From NCBI GenBank assembly GCA_016764115.1, contig JAESSM010000168.1:2749-14886 (forward strand): 12,138 bases of DNA. The letters are read 5' to 3'. The notes beneath the pieces were generated by a model. It saw only the letters and a program-made list of their open reading frames with translations. It did not search any database and was not told the DNA's origin. A program made the position numbers and the translations under genes. Below are positions 2,183 through 10,660 of the stretch, piece after piece; within the stretch, counting starts at the first letter, position 1, and every line of letters begins with the position of its first letter. The stretch comes from Bacteroidia bacterium. Its GTDB lineage: Bacteria > Bacteroidota > Bacteroidia > JAESSM01 > NORP286.

Positions 2183-2569
2183 TTAGTATTCTTCATAATA
2201 GATCAAATCCACTCGAACAGGTGACAATTCAGCAATTTCTTCTATCCACATTTTCATAATATCATCACTTTCTTTGCAGTAAAATTTGACAATAACTTCC
2301 TTGTCTTGTTTAGAGATGTTTTCCAGATTTATCAATAATTCCAGAAGTTCTTTTCCGCTCGAAGTGTTGATATAGTCTAATATTAACCTGAGTTCTGTAA
2401 GGGCATTTGGGTCTTCTGCGTATTCATTAAACCAATCCCTTATTTGATGATAAAAAGTTTGGGCATCTTCCGGTAAAGAACGACCCTTTATCTCAAATTT
2501 ATTTTGATCCTTATCAAGTAAAACTGAAGGAGATTCTTGTGTGGCTTCAAGTTCAAATCTTTGGGGCAT
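2183..2569 (-). CDS. SiaC-family regulatory phosphoprotein (DUF1987)
   Basis: 128 residues, the usual length of the family. Recognisable family pattern: a short beta N-terminus (ELEATQESPSVLLD), the FEIKGRSLPEDAQTFY segment (25-40), the LDYINTSSGKELL block (64-76), and an alternating C-terminal strand/helix KFYCKESDD...EEIAEL. In Pseudomonas aeruginosa the SiaC protein is switched by phosphorylation on Thr68, removed by the PP2C phosphatase SiaA and added by the kinase SiaB; dephosphorylated SiaC activates the diguanylate cyclase SiaD. Here Thr69 in the NTSS motif is the likely equivalent, by position; this is inference. Its ATG lies 4 nt after the stop of the large phosphatase/kinase gene, so the two are very probably one operon and SiaC is the natural substrate of that protein. 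Cytoplasmic. The downstream partner is unknown, since no GGDEF gene is in the window. Confidence 0.88.
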   Translation of the reverse strand: MPQRFELEATQESPSVLLDKDQNKFEIKGRSLPEDAQTFYHQIRDWFNEYAEDPNALTELRLILDYINTSSGKELLELLINLENISKQDKEVIVKFYCKESDDIMKMWIEEIAELSPVRVDLIYYEEY

Positions 2570-2573
2570 GTAG

Positions 2574-5500
2574 TTACTTGTTTACCTTTACATGGGTTGA
2601 ATATAGTGAAATTTTGTCATCAATTTGAGAAAACTCGAAAGAAAATTGATCGGAATAATCCTTGAATATTTTTATAAGTCCTAGGCCAGCGCCACCTTTA
2701 CTTGTATCTTTTTTTCTGATAGTTTCTTTGAAAAGGGACTGTAATTCATCTCTGCTTTTAGCTTGCAATGTTTCTACCTTAGCTCTTAGTTCATCTTCAT
2801 CATTTTTCTTAATGTAATTTGCACAATTAATAAAGTAATGTTCATCTGTTGAGCCAATATTGAAAATTCCTTCAGCATATTGATCAATCTCTGAGTACCC
2901 ATGTCTATATATATTTTGAAGCAATTCTACCAGTAACATGAAAACTTTCTTATCAATACTTGATTGACCAGAGGATTCAGTAAATCTATTTTCAATCATG
3001 TTTAATATCGGCAGAACAGATTCTTGCGAGAAATTTCCCTTATATATCATAGATATATTGCCTTCTTCCATCATTTTGTATAGTGCAATAGAAGCACTCA
3101 AAGGAACTTGAATAGCATTAGCTTCAGATTCTTTACTCTTTTGACTATCTAGTTTTAACTGAAAAAAGAAAATATTTTTATCATCACCTTCACTAGTGAA
3201 TTGATAATCTAATTTCTGCCCTGTTTTGCGGGCCATATCAATAAACCCTAATCCGGCACCACCAGAATCGGATAATTCAGTAGTTAACAATGATTCCTTG
3301 TATAACGATTTGATCTCTTCAGGTGATAGGTTATTGATCTCTTCAATTTTTTCAGTTATGATCTTAACGTTCTCTTTCTTAGTGTAGTTGGCAGATGATA
3401 TATAAATACTATCGCCAATATTCCGCGTTGCAAATAATCCCTTAATTCCATGGTGATCTTCATCAATATCTTTTTCTCCGTGCCTAATGATGTTTTGAAA
3501 AGACTCTATCATTAGATAGGAGATCTTTTTCTTTGCGCGTTTCAGATCTTTGGTTTCATCCAAATTGAACTCACTGAGTGATATTAATTGGTTAGTTAGG
3601 TCGTCATTAAATTCATCGTGAATGATCAAACTTAACCTGTCATTTTTTAATAGATCATGAATGTGGTGAATAGTATGTACTTTTTTCGGCCGTTTGGATT
3701 TGGGTTCGTTTTTACTTTCAGTTGGAGGTTTTTTTGATTCAATACCATTAAACCTAATACCGATCATTATTATATCATCGGTTTGCTCAAAATCGCCTCT
3801 CCAATTTTCCAATGTATCACCTATGGTTTTCTCCTGTGCTTCCATTCCCTTTTCCTGTACATCCAATAAAGTACCCTTCAATCTTCTCGACATGAACTTT
3901 TTATTATGCTTGCCTCCAAATTGATCTACGCAACCATCAGAGAAGATATAAATGATATCATTCTCTTTCATCTCTAATTTGTGATTGGTAAAAGTTCTTA
4001 CTTCTTCTTTTTGGTAGCCTCCAATTGAGTAGCGATCTCCTTTTACTTCTTTTAATTCACCATCTCTTAAAATTAAAAGCGGGCGGAAAGCTCCGGCAAA
4101 TTGTACTTCTCTTTTGGCGTATTTTATGGCACAAAGCCCAATGTCCATTCCGTCTTTGGTGTTGGAGTCTTCATCTGTTTGTTTTAAAGCTGTTAACACT
4201 CCAACGTGTAATTGCTCCAATATTTTTGCGGGTTCAGTTTGCCTGTTTTCGATTACAATTTGATTCAGGAGGTCATTTCCTATCATGCTCATAAACGCAC
4301 CTGGTACGCCGTGTCCTGTGCAATCCACTGCCGCGATAATAGCAATATCCTCATCATCTACAGTTATTTTAGAGAACCAGTAAAAATCGCCACTAACAAT
4401 ATCTTTAGGTTTGTAAAGAATAAAAGAATTCGGTAGAGCTTCATAAATTGCTTCAGTTCTTGGCAATATCGCTTCCTGAATTCTTTTGGCATACTTGATA
4501 CTATCAATAATGTCTTTGTTCTTTTGTGCTAGCTCAGCGTTTTTGTCTTTTAGTTCTACTGTTCTTTCCTCTACTTTGGCTTCAAGTATTCTTTTTGCTT
4601 CCTGTAATTTTTTTAACCGGATCTTAATAAACATTGAGATACTCACTACAGAAGAGATAACACAAATGAGATAGAACCACCAGGTTCTCCAGAATGGTGG
4701 GGTTATTGTGAAAGTGTAAGTGGTAGGTCCTTTATTCCATAACCCTTCATTGTTACAGGCAATTACTTTAAATGTATATTCTCCTTCTGATAAGTTAGAG
4801 TAGGTAATAAATGTTTCTTTGGTTACGGGAGACCAATCATTGTCAAATCCTTCTAATTTATATCTGTATCTTACTTTTTCAGGATTAGTCATGCTAATGC
4901 CGATAAAGTCAAACGTCAGGTGATTTTTATTATACTCGAGTGTGACAAATTGCGGCATCAAAGTATCTCTGAAAAACAACCTGTATCGAGTAATATGGGT
5001 AAGGGGTTCCGTAGTATTGGTAACATCTTCGGTAGGATCATACTGGATAGCTCCCCCGACTGTTCCAAACCACAAATTGCTCTCATTGTCCTTACAAACT
5101 GCATTTAGAGCTGCTTCTGTTCCAATTAAGCCTTCTGCTTTGTCGTAGTGTTTAACAATCACTTTCTCATTTCTCATAAATTCAAGATAATCGAATTTAT
5201 CTAGTCCTTTACTGCTGCCAATCCATAGGGTCGAATCATTGTCAAAAACCAAAAGGTAAATGTCGTCTGAACTGAGTCCTGTATTCGTAGTTATATTTGA
5301 GAAATAAGTAGTGTCATGTTGAGGCTCTCCATCTTTAATATATTGAGCTACTTTGAAAATGGATAGACCTCCATTAGTTCCTAACCATAAGTTACCTCGG
5401 GAATCCTCAAGAATGGAACGGACCAAATTATTGCCCAGCCCATTTGCTGAAGTTAACGTCTTGAATTGTGCATTACTTAATTCATTAATATTTAAATACG

Positions 5501-7196
5501 AAATGCCTCCTCCTTTGGTGCCAAACCAAATTAGGCCTCTGCTATCCTCCTTGATCGTATACAGGAAATTTTGCTGTAATCCATTTTCAGTACTATAGTT
5601 TTCAAAAACGTATTTGTTATTTTCATCTTTATAAAGTCTGGATGCACCGGATGCTGTAGCAAACCAAATATTAGCTTTAGAATCTTCATAAATACTGAGC
5701 ACTGTATTACTTGAAAGTCCATCATCAGTGGAAAAATATTGGATGTTACTCTTGTTGTTACGATCTAAAATTCCGGATAAATTACCAGACTTAGTAGGGG
5801 TATATTTTGTAATACCTTTTCTGAAATTAGCTATCCAAATATTACCATTTTTGTCTTCCAGTAATGGATAAGTATGATCATTTAACAGTCCATTTTCTTT
5901 AGTAATGTTGTAAACGAACCCTGTAGGTGTAACAGTATGAGGATCAATAGCATCGGTGATATTAAGGCTTTTTTTATTGGAATTAGGAACAAAGTAGGTA
6001 ATCCCTCCTCCAAAAGTGTTAAAAATGAAATTTCCAGCTTTATCTTGAACTATGGCCAAAACCAAATCATTTTTAAGACCGTTTTTTGTAGTATAAGCCT
6101 TAAACGCCAGACTATTCAATTTATTAACTCCAGATTCATCATTACCTATCCAAATTTTTCCTTCTCTATCTTCTAATAGTGATACACATAGATTGGAATT
6201 TAAGCCCTCATTTACAGAAAAGGATTGGATCTTCCATTTTCTATTTTTTAGATCAATATTCTTCTTGTAAATTTTAGAGATCCCTTGTCCATAAGTAGCG
6301 ATCCAGATATTTGACTTTTTATCTAAAATGAAATTTCTAACAAGCACTCCTTTTAATTCATTGATAGCCACTAATTCTTTATCTTCATTTAAAATAACTA
6401 TTGGCCCATCAATCGTTGCGCACCAAATATTACCTTCCTTATCCCGTAAAAGATCATAAAACCTTAAAGTATTAAGTTCTTCATAATCCGGAATTTCAGT
6501 AAACAGGTTATTTCTTGTTGAGTCAAAGGAGGTTAAGTTGAAATTGGATTGGGGAAGGAAGGACAAGCCGCTAAAAGTCCCTATCCACAAATTGCCTTCA
6601 ATGTCTTGCTCAATTGCCCAAACCCTGTCATTTATCAACCCATTTCTGGAAGTAAAATTGTGAAATAAATTTTTGGAATTTGCATCAGCCTTGGATTTTA
6701 TTTTAGTATGAACTTCAGAAGTAATACAAGCTAAACCTCCTCCGTTGGTCCCAACCCATATATTGTTATCCTTATCTTGAAATAATTTACGGATAACGTT
6801 GTTTTTTAGGCCGTTCTTTGTAGTAAGGTTAATGATCTCATACTTAGAAATACCTTGTGGAACACATTTCGATATTCCTCCTTCTGTTCCAAACCAAATA
6901 CTTCCGTTTTGATCCTCTAAAATGCTCATAACTGTATTGCCAGCTATACCATCAGAAGTTGTAAAGTTCTTAAATGACTTGCCGTCAAATCTTGATACTC
7001 CACCAGTCGTTCCGAACCAGATAAAACCTTTACTATCCTGAAAAATGTCTGGTACTTGCGATTGTACAAGCCCGTCATCAGTATTGTATTTCTTGAAATA
7101 ATAAGTTTGACCGAATGAACATAGCGGTTCAAGTAGCAGTACCGTTATGAGGATAATACTATAACAAAAAGGCCAATATGATTTTAGTTTGAGCAT
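2574..7196 (-). CDS. Fused sensor: signal peptide, 14 Reg_prop blades, Y_Y_Y, TM, SpoIIE/PP2C phosphatase, two SiaB-like kinase domains
   Basis: 1540 residues. Order: signal peptide 1-30 (cleavage near SFGQ); fourteen Reg_prop blades at about 36-719, each of the type GL..N.V..I..D..GNIWFGT.GG, enough for two seven-bladed propellers; Y_Y_Y beta domain about 732-832; one membrane helix about 836-857; charged coiled coil about 858-899; SpoIIE/PP2C phosphatase about 900-1150, with metal-binding acidic residues D958 (VDCTGHGVPGAFMS), D1018 (DGMDIG), D1087 (FSDG) and D1140/D1141 (TDDIIM); a Lys/Pro/Glu linker 1151-1177; then two copies of a SiaB-family (DUF6272) GHKL-like domain at about 1178-1350 and 1360-1540. 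Copy 1 has ESFQNIIRHG and GGAGLGFIDMARKTG; copy 2 has ELLQNIYRHG and GGAGLGLIKI. The sensor should sit in the periplasm and the enzymes in the cytoplasm. The likely role is to dephosphorylate and phosphorylate the SiaC protein encoded 4 nt downstream in response to a ligand. There is no histidine kinase, receiver or HTH domain, so it is not a classic hybrid HTCS. The start ATG has an AT-rich leader without Shine-Dalgarno. Confidence 0.9.
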   Translation of the reverse strand: MLKLKSYWPFCYSIILITVLLLEPLCSFGQTYYFKKYNTDDGLVQSQVPDIFQDSKGFIWFGTTGGVSRFDGKSFKNFTTSDGIAGNTVMSILEDQNGSIWFGTEGGISKCVPQGISKYEIINLTTKNGLKNNVIRKLFQDKDNNIWVGTNGGGLACITSEVHTKIKSKADANSKNLFHNFTSRNGLINDRVWAIEQDIEGNLWIGTFSGLSFLPQSNFNLTSFDSTRNNLFTEIPDYEELNTLRFYDLLRDKEGNIWCATIDGPIVILNEDKELVAINELKGVLVRNFILDKKSNIWIATYGQGISKIYKKNIDLKNRKWKIQSFSVNEGLNSNLCVSLLEDREGKIWIGNDESGVNKLNSLAFKAYTTKNGLKNDLVLAIVQDKAGNFIFNTFGGGITYFVPNSNKKSLNITDAIDPHTVTPTGFVYNITKENGLLNDHTYPLLEDKNGNIWIANFRKGITKYTPTKSGNLSGILDRNNKSNIQYFSTDDGLSSNTVLSIYEDSKANIWFATASGASRLYKDENNKYVFENYSTENGLQQNFLYTIKEDSRGLIWFGTKGGGISYLNINELSNAQFKTLTSANGLGNNLVRSILEDSRGNLWLGTNGGLSIFKVAQYIKDGEPQHDTTYFSNITTNTGLSSDDIYLLVFDNDSTLWIGSSKGLDKFDYLEFMRNEKVIVKHYDKAEGLIGTEAALNAVCKDNESNLWFGTVGGAIQYDPTEDVTNTTEPLTHITRYRLFFRDTLMPQFVTLEYNKNHLTFDFIGISMTNPEKVRYRYKLEGFDNDWSPVTKETFITYSNLSEGEYTFKVIACNNEGLWNKGPTTYTFTITPPFWRTWWFYLICVISSVVSISMFIKIRLKKLQEAKRILEAKVEERTVELKDKNAELAQKNKDIIDSIKYAKRIQEAILPRTEAIYEALPNSFILYKPKDIVSGDFYWFSKITVDDEDIAIIAAVDCTGHGVPGAFMSMIGNDLLNQIVIENRQTEPAKILEQLHVGVLTALKQTDEDSNTKDGMDIGLCAIKYAKREVQFAGAFRPLLILRDGELKEVKGDRYSIGGYQKEEVRTFTNHKLEMKENDIIYIFSDGCVDQFGGKHNKKFMSRRLKGTLLDVQEKGMEAQEKTIGDTLENWRGDFEQTDDIIMIGIRFNGIESKKPPTESKNEPKSKRPKKVHTIHHIHDLLKNDRLSLIIHDEFNDDLTNQLISLSEFNLDETKDLKRAKKKISYLMIESFQNIIRHGEKDIDEDHHGIKGLFATRNIGDSIYISSANYTKKENVKIITEKIEEINNLSPEEIKSLYKESLLTTELSDSGGAGLGFIDMARKTGQKLDYQFTSEGDDKNIFFFQLKLDSQKSKESEANAIQVPLSASIALYKMMEEGNISMIYKGNFSQESVLPILNMIENRFTESSGQSSIDKKVFMLLVELLQNIYRHGYSEIDQYAEGIFNIGSTDEHYFINCANYIKKNDEDELRAKVETLQAKSRDELQSLFKETIRKKDTSKGGAGLGLIKIFKDYSDQFSFEFSQIDDKISLYSTHVKVNK

Positions 7197-7392: not shown

Positions 7393-10300
7393 TTAAATCT
7401 CATCGCTTTCTACCAATTCGAGATCAACAGGTGCATCATAATTGTACTTTACAAAATTGCACCATTGGCACTTATCATCCCCGCAGCCATTTTCAAATTG
7501 ATGGTCCATAATTTTTTGGTAGGTATCTTTAATTTGAGATATTACTATTGATTTATCTTCATCGGTTACACTTAATTTTTGCTTAATAAACTCACCTTTA
7601 GCGTTTTTCTCCACAAAATCCATTTCTCCGGAAACCATCCTCCACTTTTTAGTTCTATCGTTATCCAGTAAGATCTTATAAAAAACAATCTGGCGCCAGT
7701 AATCACCACCATTAGGGTCTTTATCTGTTGGAGGATTTAATTTTCTTAGTCCATTTTCCGGTTTCCCGGTTTTATAATCTACTACATTCACATCGTTTCC
7801 ATCAAACTCAAGTTTGTCTACTGCTCCAGTTAAAGGAACTCCACTCACTTCAATTTTTTTAGTTCGGTATTCCGGTACTATTATTTTGTCCCAATGGTTG
7901 ATGTATTTACTGTAATAATCTGGCAAAATGGCCTGCCCATATTCTAACCTTCGATCAAATTGTTCTTTAGTGAAAGAGTTCTTTCTTCTGAACATATCGG
8001 ATTTAAAGAAACCATAGAATTCATCACTTCCAAGAAAAGTTCCATTACCGCTATCTTTCATTTTACTGAACAACTGTTCCAAAGCATAATGAACCGCAGA
8101 ACCAAATTCCATATATTCTGATTTTGCAATTGGTACTTTCACGATGTTTTCAAAATAAAAAGCAATTGGGCATCTCAAATATTTGTTGAGATGGGTAACG
8201 CTCATGGTGTACTTTTCTAAAATTGATGCTATAAATTCATGGTCTAGTAATTTTAGTAATGGCTCATTAACTTCAGTAAGAAGATGAGATTGGTATTCGA
8301 TAATTTCATTCCTATCCAGATGAACTTGATGATTGAATTGAGTTTGACAATCTCCATCAAGGATCTCAGAAATGAATTGGGTTTTTTCGATAGATTTACC
8401 ACCATTAGTTTCGGATGAATATGAAATATTGAGGTGCTCTTTTGCTCGTGTCATACCAACGTAAAAAAGCCTTCGTGATTCCTCGAGGTTGGAATCAGAA
8501 GCTTCATCGTTTGCAGGGGAAGCATTGATGGTATCAGGCAGCTTATATCCTCTGGTTGGTCCCTTTGATTCCCATGTTTTTGAATCACATCCGATCATAT
8601 AAACATGCTTGAATTCAAGACCTTTAGAAGAATGTGCGGTTAAAAAGTTAACTCCTTCGTTAGAATAGATGACTTGATCTATTTCTATAGATATATTGTG
8701 CTGTTCCATCAACTCAATGAGTTCAAGAAAGTCTTTGATGTTGAATTTTTTCTGTCGTGAAGATTCCGATTTAATAAAATCAAAAAGTGTGATCAGGGCT
8801 TCCATCAGCATAGTTTGATCTTTTGATTTCATGATGTAGTTGAGTAATCCTCCACGGGAAATGATCTTTTCAAAAAGATGCTGAAAAGTGATGTTGTATA
8901 CATTACTGATCCAATAATTCAGATTAGCTTCAAGGATTGAAATACCTTTTATTGATTCCAGATTGAGTCTAAACAATTTTTCTTTACTAGAGATGAGTTC
9001 CCTCCACGTATGTTTTGTCTTAGTATTGGGATTAAATCGACAAGCCTTTGATATTACAGCAATATCACGAGGGCTGATATCGAAAAAATCAAAATGCATT
9101 ATTTCAAAAAGTAAATATTCTGCACTGTGAGGTCTTTCGCATTCCAATTGCAGGTATTTCAATATTTTTATGAGCTTGTTAATGAATGGGAGCTCTAAAA
9201 TATTAAGCTTTCGTTTTAAGTTAATTGGGATTTCATTAATGGATAATACTTTAATTATGCTATCAACCTGTTTGTGTTTTCGATAAATAACAGCAATATC
9301 ATTAAGACTCACTTTATTTTCTTGTAGCTGTTCAATTTCTTTAATAAGCGAGGCTTCTTCATGAGTGGTATTGTAATATTCATTAATAACCGGAATGATC
9401 TCAGAAGCTGCAAATTCATCATTGTACGCAGCTAATTGTTTTGTGAGGTTAGGAATTTTGTTGATTAGCCTTTCATTGTTATAACTGATCAGTTGCTGAG
9501 ATGTATTTAAAATATTTTGGCTAGATCGATAATTTTCTTTGAGTACGATTTTTTTGAGATGAGTTTTGTATTCATCATGAAAATCCATCAAGTTCTTAAC
9601 ATTAGCCCCTTGAAATCGATATATTGATTGATCATCATCACCAACAACAAATACATTTGGAACTTCCCAAAAATTGGCTAGCAATTTTAACATTTCGTTC
9701 TGCGATCCATTGGTATCTTGATATTCATCAACTAGAATGTATTGGTATTGTTCCTGGTATCTTAATAGTAGATTTTGATTTTCTTTGAATGCCCTAATTA
9801 CCCATTGTATCATATCACTATAGTCATAACGACTGCTCTTTTTCATCAAATTTTGAAAAATATCACACTCATTAGAAGCGGCTTTAAGTTGCTTCATTCT
9901 TTTGGTTTCTTCCTCTATCTTTGCAGTTTTTAAGTCTCCTTTTTTATATTCTTTACTGTTACGCTGGTAAATGTATTCATCACGCATTGGTAATTCTTTA
10001 AGATATGAGTCAATGCATGTCTCAAGGTATTTAGCTGTCCAGCTTTCTTCTTTCATTTTCTTGAACAGATCCAAAAGCCTGTTCACCTCATAGTAGATAT
10101 TACCCGTGTATCTTATTAAAGGATGTTCTTTTGGAAATGATACGATCAATTGTTGGCATAATAATACTTGCTCCAATTCTGAGATGGGTTCTAGCTCTCG
10201 TTTTCCGAAATAGTCCAGATTTTCTTGTATTACCATATTACAGAATGAATGGAAAGTGTAAATGTGAACACGATAAGCTGTAGCACCAATAAAGTCTTCC

Positions 10301-10545
10301 AGTCGCTGTCTCATAGCAATGGTTGCCGCATCAGTATAGGTTAAGCATAGAATATTGTGGGGACCCACTTGGGTATCTGTAGAACTAAGGATGTTCCCAA
10401 TCCTTGCAGAGATGATCTGTGTTTTACCGGTGCCTGGCCCGGCAATAACAAGAACAGGGCCATCAATGTGATCGACTGCATCACGTTGATTTGGGTTAAG
10501 TTTTTTTAACTCTTCTTTAAAAGTAGAATCAAGGTTGGAATGCAT
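7393..10545 (-). CDS. UvrD/Rep-type SF1A helicase with C-terminal RecB/AddB-like PD-(D/E)XK nuclease domain
   Basis: 1050 residues from the ATG at 10545. A 3'-5' DNA translocase and nuclease for repair, replication or recombination. Helicase motifs in order: AGPGTGKT Walker A (K41), LTYTDAA (about 69-75), YTFHSFC (about 96-102), VDEYQDT Walker B (D273, E274), GDDDQSIYRFQGA (302-314), ENYRSS (337-342), TAHSSKGLEF (636-645) and RRLFYVGMTRAKEHL (691-705). The nuclease domain starts near 782: FGSAVH (H819), D910 in GAVDKLEF, the DYKTGK core (D923, K925), and Q952/Y956 in QIVFY. Cys792 (LRCPIAFYF) plus Cys1021, Cys1026 and Cys1029 match the one-plus-three cysteine plan of Fe-S nucleases such as AddB; the cluster is inferred. 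Start choice: an in-frame TTG at 10572 has AAGGA 8 nt upstream and would add 9 residues. I prefer the ATG because homologous helicases begin shortly before LNPNQRDAV, but the TTG is possible. No AddA/AdnA-like partner is next to it, so it may act alone. Confidence 0.93.
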   Translation of the reverse strand: MHSNLDSTFKEELKKLNPNQRDAVDHIDGPVLVIAGPGTGKTQIISARIGNILSSTDTQVGPHNILCLTYTDAATIAMRQRLEDFIGATAYRVHIYTFHSFCNMVIQENLDYFGKRELEPISELEQVLLCQQLIVSFPKEHPLIRYTGNIYYEVNRLLDLFKKMKEESWTAKYLETCIDSYLKELPMRDEYIYQRNSKEYKKGDLKTAKIEEETKRMKQLKAASNECDIFQNLMKKSSRYDYSDMIQWVIRAFKENQNLLLRYQEQYQYILVDEYQDTNGSQNEMLKLLANFWEVPNVFVVGDDDQSIYRFQGANVKNLMDFHDEYKTHLKKIVLKENYRSSQNILNTSQQLISYNNERLINKIPNLTKQLAAYNDEFAASEIIPVINEYYNTTHEEASLIKEIEQLQENKVSLNDIAVIYRKHKQVDSIIKVLSINEIPINLKRKLNILELPFINKLIKILKYLQLECERPHSAEYLLFEIMHFDFFDISPRDIAVISKACRFNPNTKTKHTWRELISSKEKLFRLNLESIKGISILEANLNYWISNVYNITFQHLFEKIISRGGLLNYIMKSKDQTMLMEALITLFDFIKSESSRQKKFNIKDFLELIELMEQHNISIEIDQVIYSNEGVNFLTAHSSKGLEFKHVYMIGCDSKTWESKGPTRGYKLPDTINASPANDEASDSNLEESRRLFYVGMTRAKEHLNISYSSETNGGKSIEKTQFISEILDGDCQTQFNHQVHLDRNEIIEYQSHLLTEVNEPLLKLLDHEFIASILEKYTMSVTHLNKYLRCPIAFYFENIVKVPIAKSEYMEFGSAVHYALEQLFSKMKDSGNGTFLGSDEFYGFFKSDMFRRKNSFTKEQFDRRLEYGQAILPDYYSKYINHWDKIIVPEYRTKKIEVSGVPLTGAVDKLEFDGNDVNVVDYKTGKPENGLRKLNPPTDKDPNGGDYWRQIVFYKILLDNDRTKKWRMVSGEMDFVEKNAKGEFIKQKLSVTDEDKSIVISQIKDTYQKIMDHQFENGCGDDKCQWCNFVKYNYDAPVDLELVESDEI

Positions 10546-10660
10546 AACATGGGTTTGCTTCAAATTTAGCAATAAATTAATCCTTTTTAATTGATAAGAG
10601 TTTTGACAGATCTAGCTATAACCCTTTCTTTATTACTGATCTGGTCATCCTGTGAAATAA

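Follow-up and report, generated by a model that had tools for sequence, protein, structure and literature searches.

In the 12,138-nucleotide (nt) stretch of a Bacteroidia bacterium genome analyzed here (assembly GCA_016764115.1, contig JAESSM010000168.1; hereafter the window), two adjacent genes encode a 1540-residue membrane protein that carries sensor, phosphatase and kinase domains on one chain and, directly behind it, a small SiaC-family protein; their features are listed in Table 1. The first-pass annotation, made from the letters alone, had read a PP2C/SpoIIE domain and two SiaB-like domains in the large protein and had proposed a Sia-type phosphoswitch compressed into two genes, and both the open reading frames (ORFs) and the domain matches bear this out. 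In the Pfam search, SpoIIE was recovered at 3.8e-15 (residues 953-1149) and DUF6272 at 3.7e-62 in two stretches, the NCBIfam model SiaB_fam_kinase (NF038262) scored 224.9 bits against a cut-off of 85, also in two stretches, and the 128-amino-acid (aa) neighbour had SiaC (PF09345, 4.1e-29) as its sole Pfam match; significant matches were obtained for all the families named, the small protein's included. The SiaC gene begins where it had been placed, with 4 nt between the fusion-gene stop and its ATG, and no REC domain was found in the fusion protein by the Pfam scan. By sequence, the nearest solved structures are SiaA-PP2C, SiaB and SiaC of Pseudomonas aeruginosa: 6k4e (SiaA-PP2C) matches fusion residues 860-1155 at 2.8e-42, 6kko_A (SiaB) matches the two SiaB domains at 7.6e-09 and 1.4e-08, and 6k4f/6kko (SiaC) match the 128-aa protein at about 6e-09.

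Table 1. Features of the fusion gene and its SiaC neighbour in the window, with two REC-SpoIIE-SiaB genes from other loci (L113, L114) for comparison
Feature	Position	Strand	Remarks
Fusion gene, 1540 aa	2574..7196	-	signal peptide-like segment, Reg_prop propeller, Y_Y_Y, transmembrane segment, coil, SpoIIE/PP2C, SiaB, SiaB
N-terminal hydrophobic, signal peptide-like segment, ~residues 1-30	7107..7196	-	hydropathy windows from 4-11 >1.6
Reg_prop beta-propeller sensor, ~residues 31-760, presumed periplasmic	4917..7106	-	PF07494, 8 stretches, 2.3e-60
Y_Y_Y domain, residues 770-831	4704..4889	-	PF07495, 6.6e-18
Single transmembrane segment, ~residues 838-862	4611..4685	-	hydropathy windows from 838-844
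SpoIIE/PP2C phosphatase domain, residues 931-1149	3750..4406	-	Asp motifs GDFYW, VDCTGHG, SDG, TDD; 6k4e match
Phosphatase-kinase linker, residues 1150-1177	3666..3749	-	9/28 identical to P0002 (32%)
SiaB domain 1, residues 1178-1352	3141..3665	-	E1231, Q1234-N1235, GGAGLG 1312-1317
SiaB domain 2, residues 1369-1540	2577..3092	-	E1424, Q1427-N1428, GGAGLG 1501-1506
SiaC-family protein, 128 aa, phosphoacceptor-like Thr69 in YINTSS	2183..2569	-	Thr69 codon 2363-2365
REC-SpoIIE-SiaB protein	L113:3662-5539	-	immediately before SiaC
REC-SpoIIE-SiaB protein	L114:3219-4940	+	immediately before SiaC

All of the motifs quoted in the annotation were located, including NTSS with Thr69 in SiaC. The SpoIIE motifs of the fusion lie at residues 935 (SGDFYW), 957 (VDCTGHGVPGAF), 1085 (FSDG) and 1139 (TDDI), and each SiaB domain has its QNI (1234 and 1427) and GGAGLG (1312 and 1501). 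In an alignment of both SiaB copies of 138 tandem proteins, comprising 120 listed homologues, 16 proteins from fetched loci and two fusions, one Glu (E1231/E1424) is invariant in both copies (138/138), and the Gln-Asn that follows it is kept in 97-100%. Its counterpart in the alignment is residue 62 of chain 6kko_A, seemingly Glu61 of P. aeruginosa SiaB with the chain index shifted by one; Glu61 is predicted to be catalytic (PMC7647112). The GGAGLG motif is conserved at 94-99% per position in copy 1 and relaxed in copy 2 (46-98% per position), and it is intact in both copies of the fusion. The fusion domains keep the main residues expected for activity. An AlphaFold model of the SiaB pair (53 sequences) had a mean predicted local distance difference test score (pLDDT) of 86.8 and a predicted template modelling score (pTM) of 0.87 over 370 aa, values that suggest a defined arrangement of the two domains. 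Searched with this model, Foldseek returned only the two 6kko SiaB chains at E<=0.001, each spanning one domain, with 6kko_A as the best match (4.4e-08). SiaB and SiaC of P. aeruginosa form a 2:2 complex (PMC7647112), and the tethered SiaB-SiaB pair would be a covalent form of the SiaB dimer, that is, a pseudo-dimer.

The fusion is kept in a second lineage. A homology search with the SiaB pair, confined to long proteins (~847-2695 aa) and reaching only relatives that share exact 5-residue words, had two hits at E<=0.001, the protein of the window itself and P0002, a partial protein of 1371 aa from a Bacteroidia metagenome-assembled genome, with the same four domain families and 87% identity over the SiaB pair. 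Between the two fusions, 204 of 219 residues are identical in SpoIIE (93%), 161 of 175 in SiaB1 (92%) and 481 of 590 in the propeller part, and the SpoIIE-SiaB linker has diverged (Table 1). Conserved enzyme domains around a diverged linker indicate that, within the fused chain, these domains are under constraint.

A survey of Bacteroidota for the same fusion, as the annotation had proposed, added no further case to P0002 among the matches listed in 60 genomes of the class and 395 of the phylum. The Pfam model found SiaB in 40 of the 60 class genomes, that of the window's own organism included, and, the window excepted, all listed matches lie in frames of at most 450 aa. In the phylum set, 22 of 395 genomes had SiaB matches over the cut-off, two of which, besides the window, lie in frames longer than 400 aa (627 and 582 aa); both are REC-SpoIIE-SiaB proteins with SiaC directly behind (L113, L114). 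Another ten matches scored under the cut-off. Eight of these lie in long frames (564-1085 aa), of which the one opened, from G185, had no SpoIIE match. A scan of genome contigs for additional fusions yielded 10 loci; each has SpoIIE, but in none does SiaB share the frame. A separate survey, left out of these fusion counts, found SiaB in 123 of 198 genomes. Across the sequences searched, the fusion architecture appears rare. The annotation knew of no described case of this exact fusion, and a literature search of open-licence PubMed Central (PMC) papers likewise found no description of the propeller-PP2C-SiaB-SiaB architecture, but REC-SpoIIE-SiaB fusions adjoining SiaC do exist elsewhere.

The two SiaB domains have many counterparts outside the fusion. 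The SiaB pair has 315 homologues at E<=1e-10, and the 120 listed are all separate proteins of 313-398 aa, each with two SiaB domains, the best of them ~40% identical to the fusion's pair. Tandem SiaB is a common separate gene of ~365 aa that usually adjoins SiaC, as it does in 14 of the 15 fetched tandem loci (L085-L099, all but L097; L100 and L101, retrieved as potential tandems, had no SiaB profile match and were excluded, and L102 has a single SiaB). In a midpoint-rooted tree of SiaB domains, the fused SiaB1 lies in a clade of 135 sequences, all copy-1 (support 0.93), and the fused SiaB2 in a clade of 129 sequences, all copy-2 (support 0.89); five copy-2 sequences stand on the copy-1 side. 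The idea that two SiaB domains are a peculiarity of the fusion was therefore rejected, since the pair is common as a separate protein and the fused copies group each with its own class.

Unfused counterparts are also found in the own genome, where three operons carry propeller-SpoIIE, three SiaB and SiaC (contig C38), SpoIIE, two SiaB and SiaC (C67), and propeller-SpoIIE, SiaB and SiaC (C84). The propeller proteins of C38 and C84 are the two best non-self BLAST matches to the window propeller (37% and 38%; ORFs of the loci searched), and in L085 SpoIIE, tandem SiaB and SiaC follow one another in a row. The fused gene thus unites parts found elsewhere as consecutive genes, and it may have arisen by the joining of a propeller-SpoIIE gene to a tandem-SiaB gene behind it. 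Duplicated SiaB-SiaC-SiaB-SiaC arrays were seen in L138/L077 (G042, contig C53) and L067 (G047, contig C14).

We consider it likely that the window protein is the membrane receptor of a SiaC partner switch, with sensor, phosphatase and kinase pair in one chain, and that its tethered opposing enzymes set the phosphorylation of SiaC. The periplasmic propeller and Y_Y_Y domain would read a signal, which the one transmembrane segment and the coiled coil would relay, setting the cytoplasmic SpoIIE domain to dephosphorylate Thr69 of SiaC; the tethered SiaB-SiaB pair would bind unphosphorylated SiaC and rephosphorylate it, and the phosphorylation state would determine if SiaC is available to clamp a coiled-coil protein downstream. 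We model the enzyme activities, the direction of the switch and the partner on SiaABC: in P. aeruginosa, T68 of SiaC, within LNTSS, is the residue switched by SiaA-PP2C and SiaB in vitro (PMC7647112). By this analogy both SiaB copies would be active, and the window protein may work as the bifunctional switch that the annotation had envisaged.

Several observations weigh against this reading. The NCBIfam equivalog cut-offs for SiaA, SiaB and SiaC were missed (209.3/700, 94.2/225 and 65.5/150), and by their profile scores the fusion and SiaC proteins appear to be relatives rather than equivalog-level orthologues of the P. aeruginosa proteins. Between the two fusions, SiaB2 is less conserved than SiaB1 (145/172 identical, 84%). 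The fusion has Asp1194 in SiaB1 where 96% of copy-1 domains have Gly, and K1509, F1511 and K1512 in SiaB2 where the family has mostly D/E, A and R, departures which suggest that one SiaB copy may be weak or inactive. In addition, the own genome holds ten SiaC genes, so the neighbouring SiaC may not be the only substrate, and this 2.1 Mb genome, 69% complete, may hide partners. The departures in both copies of the window lineage, the glycine motif relaxed family-wide in copy 2 and the six other SiaB domains in separate own-genome genes (three in C38, two in C67, one in C84) would also suit a docking platform, in which only SpoIIE is regulated and active, the SiaB pair is mainly a tether for SiaC or includes one pseudokinase, and free SiaB proteins phosphorylate. 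We regard such a platform as unlikely, given that the aligned catalytic Glu, the Gln-Asn and GGAGLG are intact in both window copies and that SiaB1 is so highly conserved between the two fusion proteins.

With 42 SpoIIE matches, of which some are truncated at contig ends, compared with 10 SiaC genes and 8 SiaB domains, the own genome has many more phosphatases than kinases. In three of the ten SiaC proteins the phosphoacceptor Thr is replaced by Ser (L051 on C2, L053 on C160 and L050 on C155, with NSRT, NSGS and NSGS), and no SiaB gene is present in the fetched stretches of these three loci. A further locus (L052:4779-5984, C205) is a cluster of SiaC, a response-regulator-like protein, judged by eye, and SiaC. 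A TerB-ABC-transporter protein lies within ~800 nt of SiaC, on either strand, at 9 distinct loci in 8 genomes (L047:295-3426, minus strand; L049:2-3049, plus strand; L085, L072, L064, L063, L056, L076 and L068), assigned by Pfam for L047 and L049 (~1000 aa) and by similarity for the others, which are cut by stretch ends; it is a possible output or target. In the window, the SiaC/fusion pair has a convergent proline dehydrogenase gene on one side (997-2169, +) and a UvrD-type helicase with a PD-(D/E)XK nuclease on the other (7393-10572, -).

The 40 of the 60 class genomes that have SiaB are also those that have SiaC, and the other 20 have neither, by visual comparison of the two tables; completeness is 90% or more and contamination 5% or less in 57 of the 60. 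GGDEF (PF00990) was found in none of the 60, the 69%-complete own genome included, with 8 of 14 control genomes positive. SiaC is therefore unlikely to act through SiaD in the class, where some protein other than a diguanylate cyclase is apparently its partner. SiaC is described as a structural relative of STAS proteins; in P. aeruginosa its unphosphorylated form binds the SiaD stalk, whose contacts to SiaC include V78, I81, S82, D83, R84, Y85 and Q86 (PMC8457831). In the C84 operon, 3 nt after SiaC, lies a gene whose 183-aa coiled-coil product contains a hydrophobic stretch and the motif V-SDRLQ (L049:3296-3847, minus strand). The motif [SG]DRLQ stands at the same place in seven members of this stalk family, six of which are the next gene after SiaC (L049, L132, L133, L134, L136 and L113), with a spacing from a 17-nt overlap to a 124-nt gap; five of the six belong to the class that lacks GGDEF matches in the 60 sampled genomes, and L113 to another class. 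At the seventh locus, L135, no SiaC lies within the fetched 5.7 kb. Among ORFs of at least 90 aa in 140 loci (645 distinct, 212,411 aa), [SG]DR[LYFIM]Q occurs in the seven stalk proteins only, in a sample skewed by the inclusion of loci that had been chosen for their resemblance to the stalk protein.

These stalk-like coiled-coil membrane proteins are candidate SiaC outputs in part of the class. As a tentative and still somewhat doubtful proposal, the Sia switch of the class may be independent of cyclic di-GMP, and in some members SiaC may clamp a coiled-coil membrane protein that occupies the siaD position and keeps the SiaC-contact motif, with a membrane domain replacing GGDEF. Five of the 60 class genomes, each of which has both SiaB and SiaC, gave nearly full-length stalk matches; this leaves 35 of the 40 Sia-positive genomes without a recognisable stalk protein; two Sia-negative genomes had weak partial matches (E 2e-5 and 0.001). 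Three loci run counter to a simple rule: behind SiaC stand two stalk-family genes that lack the motif in L138 and a short GDKAQ-bearing coiled-coil protein in L114, and L137, with SDKLE, has no SiaC in the vicinity. The stalk protein had no meaningful match in the PDB (best E 0.74) and four stalk proteins gave no SiaD match in NCBIfam at E<=1, so the resemblance to SiaD consists of a short motif and gene position, not a profile match. The window's own locus contains no stalk-like gene. The C-terminal membrane region of the stalk proteins is a shared membrane domain, recurring in L139 and L140 (own C31, C233) behind a REC domain (L139:3159-3797, minus strand) and in a long repeat-rich protein.

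A sigma/anti-sigma output as in RsbU-RsbW-RsbV, in place of a coiled-coil partner, would accord with the SpoIIE, GHKL-kinase and STAS-like logic common to sigma partner switches, with weak Foldseek matches of the SiaB pair to SpoIIAB, and with the presence of a stalk-like protein in only 5 of the 40 Sia-positive class genomes. It nevertheless seems quite improbable, as the best structural and sequence relatives are SiaB and SiaC, whose known partner is the SiaD stalk, and proteins with a stalk-like contact motif come next after SiaC in six loci. Least credible by far is a chimeric gene kept without selection, produced by an assembly error or by chance read-through from a phosphatase gene into a tandem SiaB one: the architecture is indeed very rare (two proteins in the long-protein search, and no other SiaB frame above 450 aa among the matches listed in the class genomes), yet a second, diverged protein has the same architecture, with its domains conserved and its linker free to drift, and gene-fusion artefact, chance and local misassembly were rejected on that ground.

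Among known systems, SiaABCD of P. aeruginosa shares with the window a PP2C phosphatase, a SiaB kinase and a SiaC with its Thr in NTSS, and differs in having separate proteins, one SiaB and an output, SiaD, with GGDEF, in contrast to one chain with a propeller sensor and two SiaB domains. SiaA of P. aeruginosa has HAMP and two membrane segments (PMC7647112). In the window, PP2C and a GHKL-type kinase stand on one polypeptide, as documented by the Pfam and NCBIfam domains and the SiaB fold match. The annotation's point about opposing enzymes on one chain stands in that respect, but the principle had already been described: HsbR-HsbA and CrsR-CrsA have PP2C and GHKL kinase/anti-sigma domains on one chain, which acts on a small anti-sigma antagonist (PMC6482189), Rv1364c carries sensor, PP2C and kinase on one polypeptide (PMC9138534), and PP2C-STYK proteins of Campylobacterota unite opposing enzymes on one chain (PMC9239204). 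SypE of Vibrio fischeri, a multidomain response regulator that acts on the STAS protein SypA, is called a serine kinase in a paper title (PMC10120452, PMC3610818). HsbR and CrsR have REC input and HsbA or CrsA as substrate, whereas the window protein lacks REC and neighbours SiaC; Rv1364c, unlike the window protein, has PAS input and its STAS substrate on the same chain. We take the HsbR/CrsR kinase to be one domain and not of SiaB type, the Rv1364c kinase likewise not to be of SiaB type, and SypE to carry an RsbW-type kinase and PP2C on one chain with REC input. Bifunctional histidine kinases, which the annotation had offered as the parallel, were rejected as the closest precedent, HsbR/CrsR and Rv1364c being closer.

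The L113 and L114 fusions resemble the window protein in joining SpoIIE to SiaB with a SiaC gene directly behind, and differ from it by REC input and one SiaB, against a propeller and two SiaB. By their domain matches they have an HsbR-like architecture with a SiaB-type kinase. A homology search from one of them returned only itself (P0123, L113), from Candidatus Kapabacteria, and their origin is probably separate from that of the window fusion. The window protein combines SiaABC chemistry with the one-chain logic of HsbR/CrsR and Rv1364c in a new propeller-PP2C-SiaB-pair arrangement.

At this locus two genes contain a signalling module that usually takes up three or more. Such a one-polypeptide system could allow sensing to be measured along with both the dephosphorylation and the rephosphorylation of SiaC, and its natural covalent SiaB pair is a means of asking whether SiaB works as an asymmetric dimer. 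The analysis also exposes a gap, in that SiaB and SiaC are common in a class without GGDEF among the 60 sampled genomes, where the known output seemingly does not apply; the stalk-like membrane proteins offer a testable replacement output for part of these genomes. If the proposed readings are true, an envelope receptor would set the conformation of another membrane protein via a phosphorylated adaptor, with no second messenger, and the window protein would be the most compact sensor-phosphatase-kinase receptor found in this analysis.

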